From: Breznakibacter xylanolyticus
GTDB taxonomy: Bacteria; Bacteroidota; Bacteroidia; Bacteroidales; Marinilabiliaceae
Reading direction: 5' to 3'
Length of the DNA stretch: 64,000 bases
Assembly (NCBI RefSeq): GCF_003254275.1
Contig: NZ_QKZK01000012.1
Span: 1 to 64,000, forward strand
A program made the translations under genes and the position numbers. The notes beneath the pieces were generated by a model. It saw only the letters and a program-made list of their open reading frames with translations, did no database searches and was not told the DNA's origin. The first letter of the stretch is position 1, and each line of letters starts with the position of its first letter. Positions 56,029 to 64,000 of the stretch are shown here, one piece after another.

Positions 56029-56469
56029 TTAATTCCCCATTTCTTCTGCGGTGAATTGTTTAACGAGCGATTGTACTGCACGTGCACATCCGGCTCCTCC
56101 TCCTTTTGTGTAAAATTTCAAGGTGTACACTTTGGTTTTCCCGATGATGATTCCTGCTGACGTGATATATTTCCCCCCGTCGGCGGTGCTAAATAATACA
56201 TTGCCAGCATCTAAGAGTTCCATGACGATATTTTCGCCGTTGCCGCTTCCATTTACAATGTTGAAATTGTATTGGCTACGGCTGTTGAGGATGATTGAAA
56301 ATTTAACCTCTTTCGTGTCACTTTTAATATCAATATTAAAGTCTTTAATGTATTGGCCGTTGCCCATTTCGTTCAATGCCTTTTTGAGTACATCTTCTCC
56401 ACATTGGGCATTAGCCGTTAAGCTCCCCAGTGAAAGTAAGATCATCAAACTGATTATAACCCTTTTCAT
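56029..56469 (-). CDS. Small secreted protein of unknown function
   Basis: 146 residues from the ATG at 56469 (a start seven codons earlier at 56490 is possible). Signal peptide KRVIISLMILLSLGSLTANAQ, then a basic-acidic domain with two cysteines (one near CGEDV, one at GAGCARAVQS) that could form a disulfide. Unrecognised. Not obviously linked to the Sia-like cluster upstream on the same strand, though only 62 bases separate them. Confidence 0.68.
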   Translation of the reverse strand: MKRVIISLMILLSLGSLTANAQCGEDVLKKALNEMGNGQYIKDFNIDIKSDTKEVKFSIILNSRSQYNFNIVNGSGNGENIVMELLDAGNVLFSTADGGKYITSAGIIIGKTKVYTLKFYTKGGGAGCARAVQSLVKQFTAEEMGN

Positions 56470-56531
56470 GGTGTTCTTTTTAGTGATCATTTGATTTGTT
56501 TAGGTTTTTAGAAGCAAATAGCAGGCCAAAC

Positions 56532-57443
56532 TTATTCAATGATAGATTGACGAATGTTTTTAATTTCCTGCATGATTGCCTTCATTGTTTCAGGAGAAGC
56601 TTCAATATGACTGATTTCGTTTTGTACAATAATCAAAACACCATCTTTTTCCAATCGTTTAGGTTCTCCAACCTCTGTCGTAATTTTTACTTTGCTATAT
56701 GCTTCCTTCAGTTTTTCAATCTGACTTGCCAAATTGGCAAAGTTTTCGTCTTTGTTATAGTTGTTTAAGATGATCAATAAGATGTCTAGGATGTCTTTTT
56801 GTTCGAGGATACGATCCGACAATTCTTTGTTGTTGGTTTGTTCTACTACGTTAGATGCAATGTAAAGTCCTTCAATCCAAGCTCCTGTGATAATAAGAGT
56901 ACTCACGTTGCTTCGGTTTTGCTCACGAAGGTAACTGTCCATTTTGTTGAAGCTCGATACTGAAATTTCCATTAAGGAGTCCAGGTTGTTGCTATTGGTG
57001 GCCAGTCGTTTTAATGAGTTGAAATCAAAAAATTGACCGACTTTTATTCCTTCAGCCAAATTTTTAATCGACAAAAGGTATGAAACAACAATGTTGTTTT
57101 TGTCAAAGATGTTGATGTAACCCAGATCAGCACTAAAAACACCCAAGTTTAAAGCTCTTTTGAAACTGGTATTGTAATCGGTAACCTTATCGGGATTGTT
57201 GAGTACTTTTTGAGAGAATTCTACGCCGGTTGATTTAATCAATGCGGCCATTTCAACAGGAGATGAGATGTTTTGAACAACGTCACCAACCAATTCTTCC
57301 GATAATTTCAGAGGAGCATCGCTCACCAATGAGTCAGGGAGCGTCAGTTCATCTTTCGATTTTTGTGTTTGACAGGTGGTGCAAGCATTAAATACTTGAA
57401 ATCCTGCCAGTATAAACAAAGCGGTGCTAATTTTTCTGAGCAT
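56532..57443 (-). CDS. Lipoprotein linked to the SiaABC-ABC transporter cluster
   Basis: A 303-residue lipoprotein (LRKISTALFILAGFQVFNAC, lipobox FNAC) that is almost wholly helical by residue pattern, with segments such as SEELVGDVVQNISSPVEMAAL and KEAYSKVKITTEVG. No catalytic motif seen and I do not recognise a named family. It ends the minus-strand group beginning with the SpoIIE phosphatase and starts 38 bases after the transporter gene, so it is likely the periplasmic partner of that transporter. Confidence 0.75.
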   Translation of the reverse strand: MLRKISTALFILAGFQVFNACTTCQTQKSKDELTLPDSLVSDAPLKLSEELVGDVVQNISSPVEMAALIKSTGVEFSQKVLNNPDKVTDYNTSFKRALNLGVFSADLGYINIFDKNNIVVSYLLSIKNLAEGIKVGQFFDFNSLKRLATNSNNLDSLMEISVSSFNKMDSYLREQNRSNVSTLIITGAWIEGLYIASNVVEQTNNKELSDRILEQKDILDILLIILNNYNKDENFANLASQIEKLKEAYSKVKITTEVGEPKRLEKDGVLIIVQNEISHIEASPETMKAIMQEIKNIRQSIIE

Positions 57444-57481
57444 GATAATAGAGATTAAATGATTAGTATGAATTTTCTATT

Positions 57482-60400
57482 TTACTTTGATTTTAACCAC
57501 TTTATGTCGCTAAGCTTGTCCAATCCTTTTTTTAACAAATCGAAATAAAGAACAGCATATAAAGCGATGGTGATGAGCCAAACTATGCAAATATTGAACC
57601 ACAAAGTGTCATAGAAGGTGCCGGCAAAGTGTTTTTTTGGGGCAAAAAAATGGGTTCTGAACGATATTGCAGATGTTGGTTGTGGCATTTGATAGATTGG
57701 ATCCACGTTTTGTATCAAATGTGTCCCGTCTCTCAGGATCTTATTTTTTTCAAATACTTTCCTCACAATATCCGAGATGCTTTCGTTGAAATAGGCATTT
57801 TTGATTGCATCAAAATTTTCTCTGTCTTTCGAAATATTGTGGTTGAGCCATTTTTCTTTATAGGTATTTGCTTCAAAAAATTGATGATTATAATGCCCTT
57901 TAATACTTTCAAGAGCATTTCGTGTGGCTCTGGCTATTTCTTTCGAAAAACTTGTTTCTGTTAGTTCGGTAATCTCCGGGAACGAAACTGATGGGATACG
58001 ACTTAATTCTTTACCAATTTCGTAACTAAGAAGTTCAAGATCAGATAGGAATTGCTTCTTATCTTCAGCCTCAGGTGATTTTAGGTACCGTTCACAGTCT
58101 TCAAGGATGGATTCCAGTTCGGGTATCATGTAAGCTACTCTAAAATCCGCGTAGCTTTCTTTGAGTTCAACATCGAAAATATTCTTCTTGAATTTGTTGT
58201 TGACAAATTGATGAACCACTAATCCCTCGTAAATCCAACGAGAAGGCATGAATTCAGCCACCAAGGGTACTTTGTCTGCAGTGGTTAGATCACGATTGAG
58301 TTTATCGAAGGTGAACATTGCTCCCCCTAAAACCATTTGAGGGATTAGCAATAACGGGATAAGAATATAAATAGTAATGATTGAGTTAAATGATGCAGAG
58401 ATAATCAATCCCAAGACATTTGCAAATGCAGAAAGCGAAAAGAGCGCAAACCAGAATTCAAAGTTCATACCCTTAAATCCAATTACACTATTCCCTACCA
58501 ATACAAATAATCCCATTTGAATGGCAGAGATGGTAAATATGATGAGGATTTTTGATGCCAGATAACTCGATCTGCTTAAATTGAGAAATGCCTCTCGTTT
58601 TAGTATTTTAGCGTCTTTAAAAATTTCTTCAGCGCTGATAATTAGGCCAAAGAACAATGCTACAACTATCCCCATAAAGATATAGGGAGGAATATTCTCA
58701 TTGTCGCGGAAAATGTAAATATCAGAGTTGGGATCTACAATATATCGAATCAGATATGCCAAGATAAACCCAAGCAGAGGACCTTCCAAGAGGTTAAGGA
58801 GGATATATTGCGTATTGCTAATTTTTGCAAAGAAATCCCTTAATGTATAAATCCAAAATTGTTTGAACCAGCCGGGGATATCTAACGTTTTAGGTGGCGC
58901 CGTTTTAACATCGGACGAGGTAGGTAAAACAATGTTTTCCTTATATAGACTGTGCCATTCTTCAGGCGATTTTTTTCGTTTATTTGTGTAATTACCATAT
59001 TCATCAATGACATTTGCGTCAATGATGTTGAAAATCATTTCAGGATTAAGGTTTCCACATGTAGGACATTCTCCGATGTCACTGTTGACCTGTAAATCAA
59101 GTCGTTTAAAATAGATGAGCGATTCACCCGGATTCCCGTAATATACAGGGTATCCACCAGTGTCAAGAATAAACATCTTGTCAAACATCTTGTAAATGTC
59201 TGATGATGGTTGGTGTATCACTACAAATATTAATTTCCCCTTCAACGTAAGTTCTTGCAGGAGATTCATCACGTTTTCCGAATCACGTGATGATAATCCG
59301 GAGGTGGGTTCATCTACAAAAAGAATTCCAGGTTGACGAATTAATTCGAGGGCAATGTTCAAACGTTTTCGCTGACCTCCTGATATCATTTTGTTTAGTG
59401 GTGAGCCAACTTTGAGATCTTTTCTCTCAAAAAGCCCCAAACTTTTTAATGTTTCTTCAACAACCTGATTGATTTCTTCTTCAGTCTTGTTTTTGAAGCA
59501 TAATTTTGCGTTGTAGTAGAGGTTTTCAAATACAGTTAGCTCTTCAATGAGCAAATCATCTTGTGGGATGTATCCAATGATACCTTCTAATTCTTCTTTT
59601 TGATGGTGTAGATCGCGACCGTTAATTAGTACATGTCCTTCGGTGGGGGTTTCAATGCCACACAATACATTGAGCAACGTGGTTTTACCGGCACCACTGG
59701 CGCCCATAATTCCGATGAGCTTGCCTTGCTCTTCTGTTATGTTGATGTTACGTAAACCAATTCCCCCTGTTTTAAAGCGATAACCGACATTGTCTACAAC
59801 ATAGGAAATTTTTTCCGCTATGGTATCGGACATGAAATGTGACACCACATCGGTATAATAAACCGGTTTGCCGATGGGGAGCCTGATAAAACTACCCTTG
59901 GCAAATAGATATATTCGTTTACTGTTAATTAACAGACCGTTAAGTAGTAGGTCTTGCGTCCCGGTGTATCTCAAGAAATAGAGATCCGAGCTTTTGACTC
60001 TTAAAATAATTACACTGCCATCTAGTGTTCCTGATAAGATGTGTCGATGCTTTTCTCCAATTTTTTCTTGATCATTAACAATCAGAATGTCTTCAAAGTC
60101 AAGTTTCGATAAATCGTTGTGAAGGACAAACGATTCAATAAGTGTAAACTCCTCTTTACTGAACTTGAAAACTTCAGCAACGGTATTGATGATGGCCATG
60201 CGCTGGTCGGTGAATTTGCGATCAGCATTCACCAATTCATATAATCTAACCAGCACAACCACCTTCTGTTCGCGATTCAGCTGCTTGTTGATTTTTTTGC
60301 AAATTCCAAGAATTCGCACCGAGTCCTTCACCGAAGTGAGTTGCACTTTTCCTTCTTCTTCCGATTTTGCAGCCTTTTCATCGGTTGCATGTTCTAAGAA

Positions 60401-60550
60401 AAACGCAAAATACTCCTCAACAGCTTCGGCATTCAGTTGCTCTTCAAGGAAATTCTTGACATATTCAGCTTCATTGGAACCGGCGCCACCATCTTGTTTG
60501 GCAATGAGGCCAAACAATTGCATTAGCGCCTTTAGAATTTCTTCACTCAT
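57482..60550 (-). CDS. ABCG/White-type ABC transporter with N-terminal TerB-like region
   Basis: 1022 residues. Residues 1-155 are helical and resemble a TerB-like domain (LFGLIAKQDGG, NREQKVVVLVRLYELVNADRKFT); 160-250 is beta-rich, possibly FHA-like. The ATPase spans about 255-480: Walker A GASGAGKTTLL near 282, signature SGGQRKRL, Walker B ILFVDEPTSGLSS near 413. A CxxC occurs in GECPTCGNL. Six or so membrane spans follow from 580, interrupted by a long soluble insert (about 805-985) before the last span. A half-transporter that would dimerise. Substrate unknown. Confidence 0.88.
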   Translation of the reverse strand: MSEEILKALMQLFGLIAKQDGGAGSNEAEYVKNFLEEQLNAEAVEEYFAFFLEHATDEKAAKSEEEGKVQLTSVKDSVRILGICKKINKQLNREQKVVVLVRLYELVNADRKFTDQRMAIINTVAEVFKFSKEEFTLIESFVLHNDLSKLDFEDILIVNDQEKIGEKHRHILSGTLDGSVIILRVKSSDLYFLRYTGTQDLLLNGLLINSKRIYLFAKGSFIRLPIGKPVYYTDVVSHFMSDTIAEKISYVVDNVGYRFKTGGIGLRNINITEEQGKLIGIMGASGAGKTTLLNVLCGIETPTEGHVLINGRDLHHQKEELEGIIGYIPQDDLLIEELTVFENLYYNAKLCFKNKTEEEINQVVEETLKSLGLFERKDLKVGSPLNKMISGGQRKRLNIALELIRQPGILFVDEPTSGLSSRDSENVMNLLQELTLKGKLIFVVIHQPSSDIYKMFDKMFILDTGGYPVYYGNPGESLIYFKRLDLQVNSDIGECPTCGNLNPEMIFNIIDANVIDEYGNYTNKRKKSPEEWHSLYKENIVLPTSSDVKTAPPKTLDIPGWFKQFWIYTLRDFFAKISNTQYILLNLLEGPLLGFILAYLIRYIVDPNSDIYIFRDNENIPPYIFMGIVVALFFGLIISAEEIFKDAKILKREAFLNLSRSSYLASKILIIFTISAIQMGLFVLVGNSVIGFKGMNFEFWFALFSLSAFANVLGLIISASFNSIITIYILIPLLLIPQMVLGGAMFTFDKLNRDLTTADKVPLVAEFMPSRWIYEGLVVHQFVNNKFKKNIFDVELKESYADFRVAYMIPELESILEDCERYLKSPEAEDKKQFLSDLELLSYEIGKELSRIPSVSFPEITELTETSFSKEIARATRNALESIKGHYNHQFFEANTYKEKWLNHNISKDRENFDAIKNAYFNESISDIVRKVFEKNKILRDGTHLIQNVDPIYQMPQPTSAISFRTHFFAPKKHFAGTFYDTLWFNICIVWLITIALYAVLYFDLLKKGLDKLSDIKWLKSK

Positions 60551-60600
60551 GGTTTAATGGTCAACAAAGTAGGGTTGTATAATAGCAGGTATTCTTTTAC

Positions 60601-60981
60601 TTAATCAGGCAAAAGGATGTATTCAAACGGTATTTCAACAATATCAGCGTACTCTTCACCAGCTTCAAGCATGTCTTCTTCTTCTTCGTGGTAGTGCCAT
60701 TTAATTTTAACAGATTTCCCCGATTCGAAGATTTCTTCAAATTTAAGTAAAATATCTAAAATAACTTTAGACGAAGCCGTATTGAAGTATTCCAGCTTGA
60801 AGTTGAAAATCGTTTCAGCATTGGCATCCGATGCGTATTGGTCAATCCAGTTTAAGATGGGTTCATAAAAATGGTTGACGTCCTCAGGCAGAGAGCGTCC
60901 GGAAATTTCAAAAGTTCCATTAGCTTTGTCAAGAACCACATTTGGCGTATCTTCTGTCCCTTTAATGTTGATGACTTCCAT
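60601..60981 (-). CDS. siaC: SiaC-like phosphoprotein (DUF1987)
   Basis: 126 residues. EISGRSLPEDV and WIDQYASDANAE then LEYFNTASSKVILDIL are the DUF1987 hallmarks. T68 in FNTASSK corresponds by position and context to the threonine phosphorylated by SiaB in Pseudomonas SiaC. It has an acidic loop (HEEEEDMLEAGEEY). Thirteen bases separate it from the kinase gene. Confidence 0.88.
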   Translation of the reverse strand: MEVINIKGTEDTPNVVLDKANGTFEISGRSLPEDVNHFYEPILNWIDQYASDANAETIFNFKLEYFNTASSKVILDILLKFEEIFESGKSVKIKWHYHEEEEDMLEAGEEYADIVEIPFEYILLPD

Positions 60982-60994
60982 ATCTGTTTTTTAA

Positions 60995-61564
60995 TTAGTT
61001 ACGTTTAATGGTTGAAGTTAAGATAAAGAATGAACGGTCTTCATTCAGTGTTTTAAATTGATAGGTCAGTTTGCTTCCTGTTTTTTTAGCAATGTCAATT
61101 AATCCCAGGCCTGCTCCTCCTTTGTCGGAAATACGCCCTTCTTTAATTTGTTTTTTGTACAATTCCGACAGTCCTTCTTTGTCGAGACCGTTGACCGTTT
61201 CAAGGGTGCTTTGTAATTCGGCTACTTTATCATTTTTAATGATGTTTCCTGTAATGATGTTATAACTTTCTTCACCTTTGCTGACCATCACAATGCCACG
61301 TCGTTCTTCATCATCCTCGCTCAACGTGTCAGCATGTTTGCTAATGTTTTGCAAGCATTCAACCATGACATTAAATACTTTACGTTGAACCTGATTCGAT
61401 TCTGCGCTTTTGGTTAAGCTTTTTTCTGTCAGTGAGGTAAATGTTTTGGTGATTTCTTGTGTGACTTCACCTTCATAAACCAGACTGATTTCGTTTGTTT
61501 TCATGGTTTTGTAAAGCTGGTAAGCAAAATCCAGAAAACTTTGGTTTTCTTTTACGCTGTTCAT
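60995..61564 (-). CDS. siaB: SiaB-like protein kinase (DUF6272)
   Basis: 189 residues with a GHKL-type layout: N-box-like helix (RKVFNVMVECLQNISKHAD) and a glycine-rich lid GGAGLGLIDIAKKTG. In Pseudomonas, SiaB phosphorylates SiaC, opposed by the phosphatase SiaA. The order phosphatase-kinase-substrate here repeats that logic. No sensor region, so it is cytoplasmic. Confidence 0.86.
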   Translation of the reverse strand: MNSVKENQSFLDFAYQLYKTMKTNEISLVYEGEVTQEITKTFTSLTEKSLTKSAESNQVQRKVFNVMVECLQNISKHADTLSEDDEERRGIVMVSKGEESYNIITGNIIKNDKVAELQSTLETVNGLDKEGLSELYKKQIKEGRISDKGGAGLGLIDIAKKTGSKLTYQFKTLNEDRSFFILTSTIKRN

Positions 61565-61593
61565 GATTTTTTTCTTTGATTTCGTAACTATTC

Positions 61594-64000
61594 TTAAAGT
61601 TCAATTCCTATTAATAAGACATCATCGACTTGTTTTTCTTCTCCCATCCAATCATAAAAATCTTTGGAGAAAAATCTCGCGTAGTGTGCCATTGTTGCAT
61701 CTTTATCTTCTGTGAGCGCTTCTCTAATTCTTTTGTTCAAATATTTTTTACCGTCTTTGCCGGTTTGATCAGGCAATCCGTCTGAGAATATAAAGAATTT
61801 ATCTCCAGTTTGATAGTCAATGATGTTGTTTTCAAAATCCAGTTCAATTTTTTTCGCTAAAGGAATCCCTCCGATTGCTTTCCGTGATCCCTTGTATTCT
61901 GTTAGTTCTCCATTGCGAAGGTAATATAAAGGACGATGCGCACCTGCATATTGCAATTCATTTTTTTTCGGATTGATTTTACAAAGTGCCAAGTCCATGC
62001 CATCCCGTCCGTTTGCCCCGTCTTGATCCTGACGCAATGTCCGTCTGACTTTTTGATGTAACTGATCTAATATCTCGGAAGCGCTTAGGTCTTTGTCTGC
62101 ATTGACGATGTTGTTTAATAAGAAATAACCAATGAGTGACAATAATGCTCCAGGGACGCCATGTCCTGTACAGTCAACTGCAGCAATATAGAAAATGTCA
62201 TCTTTCATAAAGAACCAAGGGAAATCACCACTGACCACATCTTTAGGTCTGTAGAAGATAAAAGATCTAGGGAAATATTGCTGGATAACACCGGTATCTG
62301 GTAAAATCGAAGTTTGTATCCGTTGTGCATAATTGATACTGTCAGAGATTTTCTTGTTTTTATCTTTTATTTCCTGTTCAATGATCTTCATCTCAGTCAG
62401 GTCGTGCGTCACAAATAACACTGACTCAAGTTCTTGGTCTTCGCTGAATTCGGGTATGGCTTTTATTTCCATAATCCTCATATCCCCATGGGATTGCATC
62501 TCAATTTCTGCAACCATTTGTTTTGGGTCTTCCCTCATTGTGGAAAGCGAAGTCCGTACAAAATCGATAAATTGTGGGTCAATGTCAAGTTCGTATATTC
62601 TTTTTTTGATAATCTCGGTGGATGGAACTCCGATGAACTTAGAGATTGCCGGGTTTACATATACCAGTTTTCCGGTATTGCTGATCCGTAAAATCATATC
62701 GGGACTATTCTCCGATAATGATTGCATACGGCTTTTCATTCGTTCCTCTTTTTCGGCTCTTTTTCTTTCAGTGATATCTTGTGTGTTGAAGATAATTCCT
62801 CTAATTGCAGGGTCGTGCAGTAAGTTTTTTCCTTTTGTTTCCAAAAAGAGTTTTTCACCGTTTTTCTTGAGATAAGTGTATTGAGCAACGTGTTCGCCAC
62901 CCGGCGTTTCGAGTAGGAATTGGAATAGGTTGTTAATCGTTTTAAAACCTCGAGGTGTTAATAATTCCGGATCCATCCCGGAAACCTTGTCATTATCGTT
63001 ATAGCCTAATATTCGTTTGACAGAAGGACTTTCAAAGACAAGTTCCTGTTTTTCGTTGTATATAGAAATAAATTCGGATGCATTCGTCAATAAAGCTTGA
63101 AGTCGTTTTTGTCCGTGCTCGACTTCTTGAATCTGATTGGCCAGTAATTTGTTCGACTTCTCGAGATTTTCTTGAGCAACCATCATTTCACGAGCATTTT
63201 CATGTAGTGTCTGCTCGTTTTCTTTGAGGACAATCGTTAATTCCTGTGATTCTTTTAATAATTGAGCCGTGCGAATGTTTATTTTTAAGTTATAAATAGT
63301 TCGTCCGATTATGTTGCTTATTTCTTCAATAAAATGGAGAATATATTTTGGTAATTTGTTGTTTAAGAAGGCTAATTCCATCACCCCCTGTAGTTCATCT
63401 TCTTGCATTAATGGAATAACAATGAGGCTCTTGGGTTTTTTATCTCCAATGAGGCCAGAAGTCAACGTGAAGTAATCGTCCGGTATTTCGGTTCGATAAA
63501 TCATTTGCTTTTCATAGGCGACTTCCCCCACTAACCCTTTCCCGATTGGGATTTGCATTTTTTCATATCGCTGGCGGTTAAATGCGTATGCTGCGGCATT
63601 CACAAGAACATCACCTTCCGGTAAAAATATCCCCCCCTGAATGGCTCCTGTATAGTCGATGGTCGCTTTTAATACATTGATTGTTAGTTCATCAATTGTT
63701 GTGGTTATTCGGAGTATATCCGATACCCTTTCTTTGCCTCGAGCAATCCAGTTTAAGTCGTCTTCTTTTTTGCGAGTGCCCGATAGACTTTTGCCCAGTG
63801 CAATAAGCGCTGCAGCTAATTCGTCATCAGCAGCTTCAAAACGATTAAGTTTGCCTTCACCAATCCGCGTAGCCAATTCAATGCTTGAGTGGATTTTGCT
63901 CTTAAGTGCATCTATTTCAGTCTTAAGTTGTCGGCTTTTTTGGATGTGATAGTTTACAAAAAATACGACCTGGACCGGAATTGAAAGAATAATCAAATCA
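61594..64000 (-). CDS. SpoIIE-family protein phosphatase with GAF and PAS domains (5' end cut)
   Basis: At least 800 residues; the frame is open to the window edge, so the start and probably further membrane spans are missing (the first residues, SIPVQVVFFVNYH, look like the end of a span). Order: coiled coil, GAF (about 70-240), coiled coil, PAS 1 (about 300-410), PAS 2 (425-545), PP2C-type phosphatase (560-800) with GDF, VDCTGHGVPGALL, DGMDLAL, FSDGLPDQTG and VDDVLLIGIEL. By analogy to SiaA it dephosphorylates SiaC. 29 bases to the kinase gene. Confidence 0.9.
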   Translation of the reverse strand, partial: DLIILSIPVQVVFFVNYHIQKSRQLKTEIDALKSKIHSSIELATRIGEGKLNRFEAADDELAAALIALGKSLSGTRKKEDDLNWIARGKERVSDILRITTTIDELTINVLKATIDYTGAIQGGIFLPEGDVLVNAAAYAFNRQRYEKMQIPIGKGLVGEVAYEKQMIYRTEIPDDYFTLTSGLIGDKKPKSLIVIPLMQEDELQGVMELAFLNNKLPKYILHFIEEISNIIGRTIYNLKINIRTAQLLKESQELTIVLKENEQTLHENAREMMVAQENLEKSNKLLANQIQEVEHGQKRLQALLTNASEFISIYNEKQELVFESPSVKRILGYNDNDKVSGMDPELLTPRGFKTINNLFQFLLETPGGEHVAQYTYLKKNGEKLFLETKGKNLLHDPAIRGIIFNTQDITERKRAEKEERMKSRMQSLSENSPDMILRISNTGKLVYVNPAISKFIGVPSTEIIKKRIYELDIDPQFIDFVRTSLSTMREDPKQMVAEIEMQSHGDMRIMEIKAIPEFSEDQELESVLFVTHDLTEMKIIEQEIKDKNKKISDSINYAQRIQTSILPDTGVIQQYFPRSFIFYRPKDVVSGDFPWFFMKDDIFYIAAVDCTGHGVPGALLSLIGYFLLNNIVNADKDLSASEILDQLHQKVRRTLRQDQDGANGRDGMDLALCKINPKKNELQYAGAHRPLYYLRNGELTEYKGSRKAIGGIPLAKKIELDFENNIIDYQTGDKFFIFSDGLPDQTGKDGKKYLNKRIREALTEDKDATMAHYARFFSKDFYDWMGEEKQVDDVLLIGIEL

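Follow-up and report, generated by a model that had tools for sequence, protein, structure and literature searches.

A SiaABC-type partner switch encoded with an ABCG-type half-transporter in Bacteroidota, and its possible role as a transporter gate

In Pseudomonas aeruginosa, unphosphorylated SiaC binds the helical stalk of the diguanylate cyclase SiaD, and phosphorylation of SiaC at T68 prevents this binding (PMC8457831). What, then, might the same partner switch control in a bacterium that has no SiaD? We addressed this question at a locus lying at the end of a 64,000-nucleotide stretch of Breznakibacter xylanolyticus DNA (the window), where five open reading frames on the minus strand follow one another in the order SiaA-SiaB-SiaC-TR-LP; here, TR denotes an ABCG-type half-transporter and LP a helical lipoprotein. 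An earlier reading made from the sequence alone had described these five collinear genes with gaps of 29, 13, 50, and 38 bases, and we found all five again with the same spacing. The unit is larger than that reading supposed, however, because a gene for a small secreted protein (SP) lies downstream and a GAF-CheB-CheR-CheR block lies upstream. We propose that the SiaABC switch gates TR, with an ABC transporter taking the role that a diguanylate cyclase has as its output elsewhere, and we give this reading a probability of about two in three (0.68).

The siaA-like gene (61594..64000, minus strand, cut by the window end) encodes 870 amino acids at full length and extends to contig position 64206. 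Its product has two hydrophobic segments at the N terminus, matches SpoIIE (1.9e-19) together with GAF and PAS domains, and aligns with the solved PP2C domain of SiaA (6k4e, E 4.7e-34), with the PP2C metal-site motifs kept. The siaB gene (60995..61564, minus strand) encodes a 189-aa GHKL-type protein kinase that matches DUF6272 (2.7e-43) and the NCBIfam SiaB_fam_kinase model (NF038262, 172.5 bits against a cut-off of 85) and aligns with chain A of 6kko (E 2.3e-16), retaining the active-site motifs and the predicted catalytic Glu, E69. The siaC gene (60601..60981, minus strand) encodes a 126-aa STAS-like phosphoprotein of the DUF1987 family, which matches PF09345 at 5e-42 and aligns with 6kko/6k4f (E 4e-18); its T68 (codon at 60778-60780, minus strand) sits in the motif FNTASSK. 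These results bear out the sequence-only reading, which had named a SpoIIE phosphatase with GAF-PAS-PAS, a GHKL-like kinase, and a DUF1987 protein with the conserved T68. The metal-binding residues of the phosphatase, a SiaB-family kinase with its catalytic Glu, and T68 of SiaC are all present, and the three proteins score below the NCBIfam equivalog cut-offs set for SiaA, SiaB, and SiaC of P. aeruginosa. At other loci, we saw two SiaB-type (DUF6272) domains fused in one chain (L114:2067-3584, L115:5822-7381, and L167:4720-5814); the L114 fusion is followed by SiaC, and L115 is similar in look.

The next gene encodes TR (57482..60550, minus strand), which had been read as a 1022-residue ABC half-transporter with a TerB-like N-terminal region, and family matches agree (ABC_tran, 5.4e-34; ABC2_membrane, 7.9e-19; TerB, PF05099, 8.4e-8). 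In the predicted structure (pLDDT 85.3, 74 sequences), a TerB-like helical domain (helices within residues 3-143; residues 1-143 at 60122..60550, minus strand) is followed by a β domain with strands at 155-223, an ATPase domain at 249-515, membrane helices from 580, long helices at 792-930, and TM6 at about 982-1002. ABCG structures align to residues 245-1011 (Z about 32), and TR is a single chain of ABCG fold, its ATPase domain preceding the six-helix membrane domain. The same layout, an ATPase domain ahead of six TM helices, is found in eukaryotic ABCG1, ABCG2, and ABCG5/8; unlike these, TR has ∼245 extra residues at the N terminus and about 235 residues in the loop between TM5 and TM6. Because of the position of TM6 and the extent of the ABCG alignment, the long soluble C-terminal region described earlier has to be reinterpreted as mostly this loop (residues 746-980; 57611..58315, minus strand), which the model leads us to expect in the periplasm. 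The β domain (residues 150-235; 59846..60103, minus strand) had no Pfam match; its profile gave a single weak match, to the FHA domain of MEK1 (E 0.022), in which the NG motifs line up, and the canonical phosphothreonine-binding residues are not evident, so we take its FHA-like character as a lead only. Just past the ATPase domain, a nearly invariant C495-x-x-C498-G-N motif (residues 495-500; window positions 59051-59068) is possibly a metal or redox site.

Two genes for envelope proteins follow TR. LP (56532..57443, minus strand; 303 aa) is indeed a helical lipoprotein, as previously described: its C21 is invariant in a 67-row alignment, and its predicted structure (pLDDT 83.9) is mostly helical. 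LP had no match in family searches, and a fold comparison gave no clear match, the best VIA-align rows lying under Z 8. SP, the sixth member of the unit, begins 41 bases past the LP gene (56029..56490, minus strand; 153 aa), is supported by its alignment, and had no significant match among PDB sequences. At the other end, outside the window, siaA is preceded by closely spaced or overlapping genes, one for a GAF protein that bears two hydrophobic segments, one for CheB, and two for CheR-type enzymes, and farther upstream by genes for a GAF-PAS protein, a REC-CheB protein, CheD, and a protein with a histidine-kinase-type ATPase. The whole block (L003:8229-15925, contig C12 about 64228-71924) runs straight into siaA. 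Promoter and terminator scans gave counts near the shuffled expectation (51 versus 46.7 and 15 versus 10.7, respectively), and we set them aside.

The gene-neighborhood survey that the sequence-only reading had proposed speaks for a functional unit in class Bacteroidia. We distinguish three types of TR locus, and this genome has one of each: type A on contig C12, with SiaC immediately upstream of TR on the same strand and LP downstream; type B on C8, with TR convergent with its own SiaC-SiaB pair, mostly 58-554 bases apart; and type C on C5, with TR adjoined by LP and no SiaC beside it. Among relatives, the type A arrangement holds at 40 of 45 loci; of the five exceptions, three (G010, G012, and G013) have a TR that reaches the contig end, and two (G018 and G029), from one genus, have SiaC elsewhere. 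Across the 47 A-type loci with enough flank, LP is present in 46, SiaB in 45, SiaA in 44, SP (downstream of LP) in 43, CheR in 41, and CheB in 40; the CheR-CheB-GAF genes are conserved ahead of siaA in about 40 of the 47. The order SiaA-SiaB-SiaC-TR-LP-SP recurs from Bacteroidales/Marinilabiliaceae to Cytophagales, with carriers including Anaerophaga, Saccharicrinis, Breznakibacter, and Salinivirgaceae and, in Cytophagales, Marivirga, Cesiribacter, Nafulsella, Fulvivirga, and Flexithrix. The conserved unit is established. The SiaC genes of types A and B form largely separate groups in a tree (8 label changes versus 49.9 when shuffled), although parts of this tree have poor resolution. Type B loci in more distant families carry LP and SP as well, and TR-LP sets without an adjacent SiaC are common; TR-LP-SP is a transporter set conserved in Bacteroidota and not yet named. 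In some Bacteroidales MAGs (L198, L203, L218, L228, and L187), TR-LP-SP stands without SiaABC beside it and with differing upstream genes, and is followed, in the opposite direction, by a ∼331-aa gene (DUF6427-like in L228) and a purD-type gene.

SiaC and TR also travel together at the level of whole genomes. Both are present in 46 of 61 relatives and both absent in 14; in the remaining genome, which is 72% complete, TR lies at the end of a contig and SiaC was not found. Thus 46 of 47 TR genomes among relatives have SiaC, compared with 8 of the 193 sampled phylum genomes without TR. In the phylum sample of 198 genomes, SiaC occurs in 13 and TR in 5, and all five TR genomes have SiaC. A second sample, of 40 TR holders most of which were picked since SiaC had not been seen beside that TR, has SiaC in 39; a second TR beside SiaC in the B arrangement was present in 5 of the 20 that we inspected. 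Fisher tests of this co-occurrence give p-values of 7e-13, 5e-7, and 3e-35, whose strength is overstated because the genomes are related. An objection raised in advance, that SiaC in relatives might usually lack the transporter, holds outside class Bacteroidia and fails within it.

The absence of SiaD from this genome is established. We found no GGDEF domain in the whole genome or in 60 relatives, using a search whose control was positive in 8 of 14, and therefore exclude a SiaD-type output, including a SiaD hidden elsewhere in the genome. The sequence-only reading had noted no SiaD here and had named a GGDEF gene just outside the window, next to the phosphatase, as the finding that would count against it; reading the contig past the window end, we found none there. 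Other classes of this phylum have, directly after SiaC, a gene for a GGDEF protein (two loci), for a histidine kinase, for an AAA+ ATPase, or for still other proteins; in Bacteroidia type A, this gene encodes TR, which therefore occupies the output slot. This agrees with the proposal, made by the authors of the SiaC-SiaD work, that members of the DUF1987 family modulate the proteins encoded next to them (PMC8457831). Large multi-domain AAA+ ATPases with a CbxX-like lid immediately follow SiaC at L160:1893-6345 and L162:3679-7244 and are a candidate for another switch output. At L258, L260, L261, and L266, the order is a SiaA-like gene, a gene for a ∼285-aa protein, SiaB, SiaC, and a ∼350-aa gene (a DeoC-type aldolase in L260 and L266); the TR of these genomes is not beside SiaC. 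Since SiaC copies elsewhere adjoin unrelated genes such as this aldolase gene, adjacency alone does not name the target. We had also considered SiaC beside other ABC proteins as independent support and rejected it, as these are UvrA-like and ABC-F ATPases and not transporters.

If SiaC acts on TR, where might it bind? The absence of a domain in type C could not locate the site, because type C also has a TerB-like N terminus and only conservation differs. We therefore compared conservation among A-type TR, B-type TR, and TR with no adjacent SiaC at matched ATPase-domain identity (0.65-0.70), a contrast in which pairs are not independent and transporter subtype is confounded with SiaC linkage. 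Where SiaC is a neighbor, constraint is highest in residues 1-20 (MSEEILKALMQLF...), with identities of 0.85, 0.74, and 0.62 in the three groups, respectively; for residues 21-143, the values are 0.48, 0.44, and 0.35. Little difference was seen in the FHA-like segment (0.39/0.34/0.34), TM1-5 (0.61/0.63/0.62), or the loop helices (0.24/0.27/0.27). The extra identity in residues 1-143 suggests that it is the N-terminal domain whose conservation follows SiaC. It lends independent, if indirect, support to the earlier suggestion that the switch works through this N-terminal extension, although binding, gating, and the role of periplasmic partner given there to the lipoprotein are still inference, and we are less certain of this site than of gating itself.

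By analogy with the binding of SiaC to the helical stalk of SiaD, unphosphorylated SiaC may bind the helical N terminus of TR. In the scheme that we infer, from the phosphorylation step through to the direction of the effect and export, SiaB would phosphorylate SiaC at T68, and membrane-anchored SiaA would strip this phosphate upon stimulation of its GAF/PAS sensor, which the neighboring CheR/CheB enzymes possibly tune. Unphosphorylated SiaC would then bind the cytoplasmic TerB-like domain of the TR half-transporter dimer and change its ATPase or assembly state, and TR would move a putative cargo outward, with the periplasmic TM5-TM6 helices, LP, and SP making up the envelope side. We hold this complete picture, in which SiaC on the TerB-like N terminus gates envelope-spanning TR-LP-SP export and methylation enzymes tune SiaA, tentatively and at slightly less than even odds. 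Against gating, the type C TR keeps the same TerB-like N terminus with no SiaC adjacent.

A variant that differs in the site only would have SiaC bind the ATPase domain of TR and not its N terminus. SiaC is a structural relative of the STAS proteins (PMC8457831), and the STAS protein MlaB binds the MlaF ATPase, an interaction weakened by a phosphomimic at T52, the Thr corresponding to the phosphosite (PMC7367683); however, MlaB differs from a switch in staying in its complex permanently, and the extra constraint in TR falls in residues 1-143 at matched ATPase-domain identity. We consider this placement rather unlikely, at perhaps one chance in a few. Somewhat less probable still is that SiaABC and TR-LP-SP are merely co-transcribed for one response and that the target of SiaC lies elsewhere, for example in a sensor kinase. 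Genomes with several SiaC genes do carry copies beside unrelated genes, and type C transporters work without an adjacent SiaC. On the other hand, TR fills the slot that SiaD has in other classes, SiaC and TR are paired in each of two separate configurations (A and B), their co-occurrence holds even without adjacency, and N-terminal constraint in TR tracks SiaC adjacency. We consider it improbable that signal flows in reverse, with TR, LP, and SP sensing the envelope or a cargo and feeding SiaABC as in transporter-coupled sensor systems while SiaC acts elsewhere: the long helical periplasmic loop, the lipoprotein, and the secreted protein would suit such a role, and the CheR/CheB block suggests an adapting sensory complex, but SiaA has its own membrane segments with GAF and PAS input, the block encodes no other recognized SiaC output, and TR-LP pairs exist without an adjacent SiaC. 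The suggestion in the sequence-only reading that the phospho-switch gates the transporter is supported in part: a conserved unit in a genome lacking SiaD speaks for it, and TR paralogues without an adjacent SiaC temper it.

The locus resembles SiaABCD of P. aeruginosa in its SiaA phosphatase, SiaB kinase, SiaC T68, and gene order (PMC8457831, PMC7647112), and the solved P. aeruginosa structures align with all three proteins; unlike that system, the genome has no SiaD or GGDEF protein, and an ABC transporter stands in the place of SiaD. As in MlaFEDB/MlaFB of Escherichia coli, a STAS-like protein is found with an ABC transporter, and like SiaC, MlaB has a phosphosite Thr, within its binding face; in contrast to our locus, MlaB has no known kinase or phosphatase, and Mla is an MCE-type system of separate subunits and not an ABCG half-transporter (PMC7367683). 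In Rv1747-PknF of Mycobacterium tuberculosis, an adjacent gene puts an FHA-bearing, single-chain half-transporter with an N-terminal regulatory part under threonine phosphorylation; there, phosphorylation falls on Rv1747 itself, a protein with two FHA domains, whereas here the phosphoprotein is separate and the FHA-like domain uncertain (PMC3908365). A literature search, with most subscription journals outside its scope, found no paper linking SiaC/DUF1987 to an ABC transporter, in line with the earlier statement that no function had been described for this arrangement.

On post-translational switching of ABC transporters, still an unsettled subject, the MlaFB authors consider phosphorylation of the STAS protein as a possibility, without evidence for it (PMC7367683). 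At the present locus, the genes for a STAS-like phosphoprotein, its presumed kinase, and its presumed phosphatase adjoin that of an ABC transporter, with one gene order shared by dozens of genomes, which makes this idea directly testable. Our reading gives SiaC a possible output in bacteria that lack diguanylate cyclases; if true, ABC transporters would be a new target for a SiaC-type switch across many Bacteroidota, and partner switching would be an output-swapping module that drives cyclases, kinases, AAA+ machines, and transporters.
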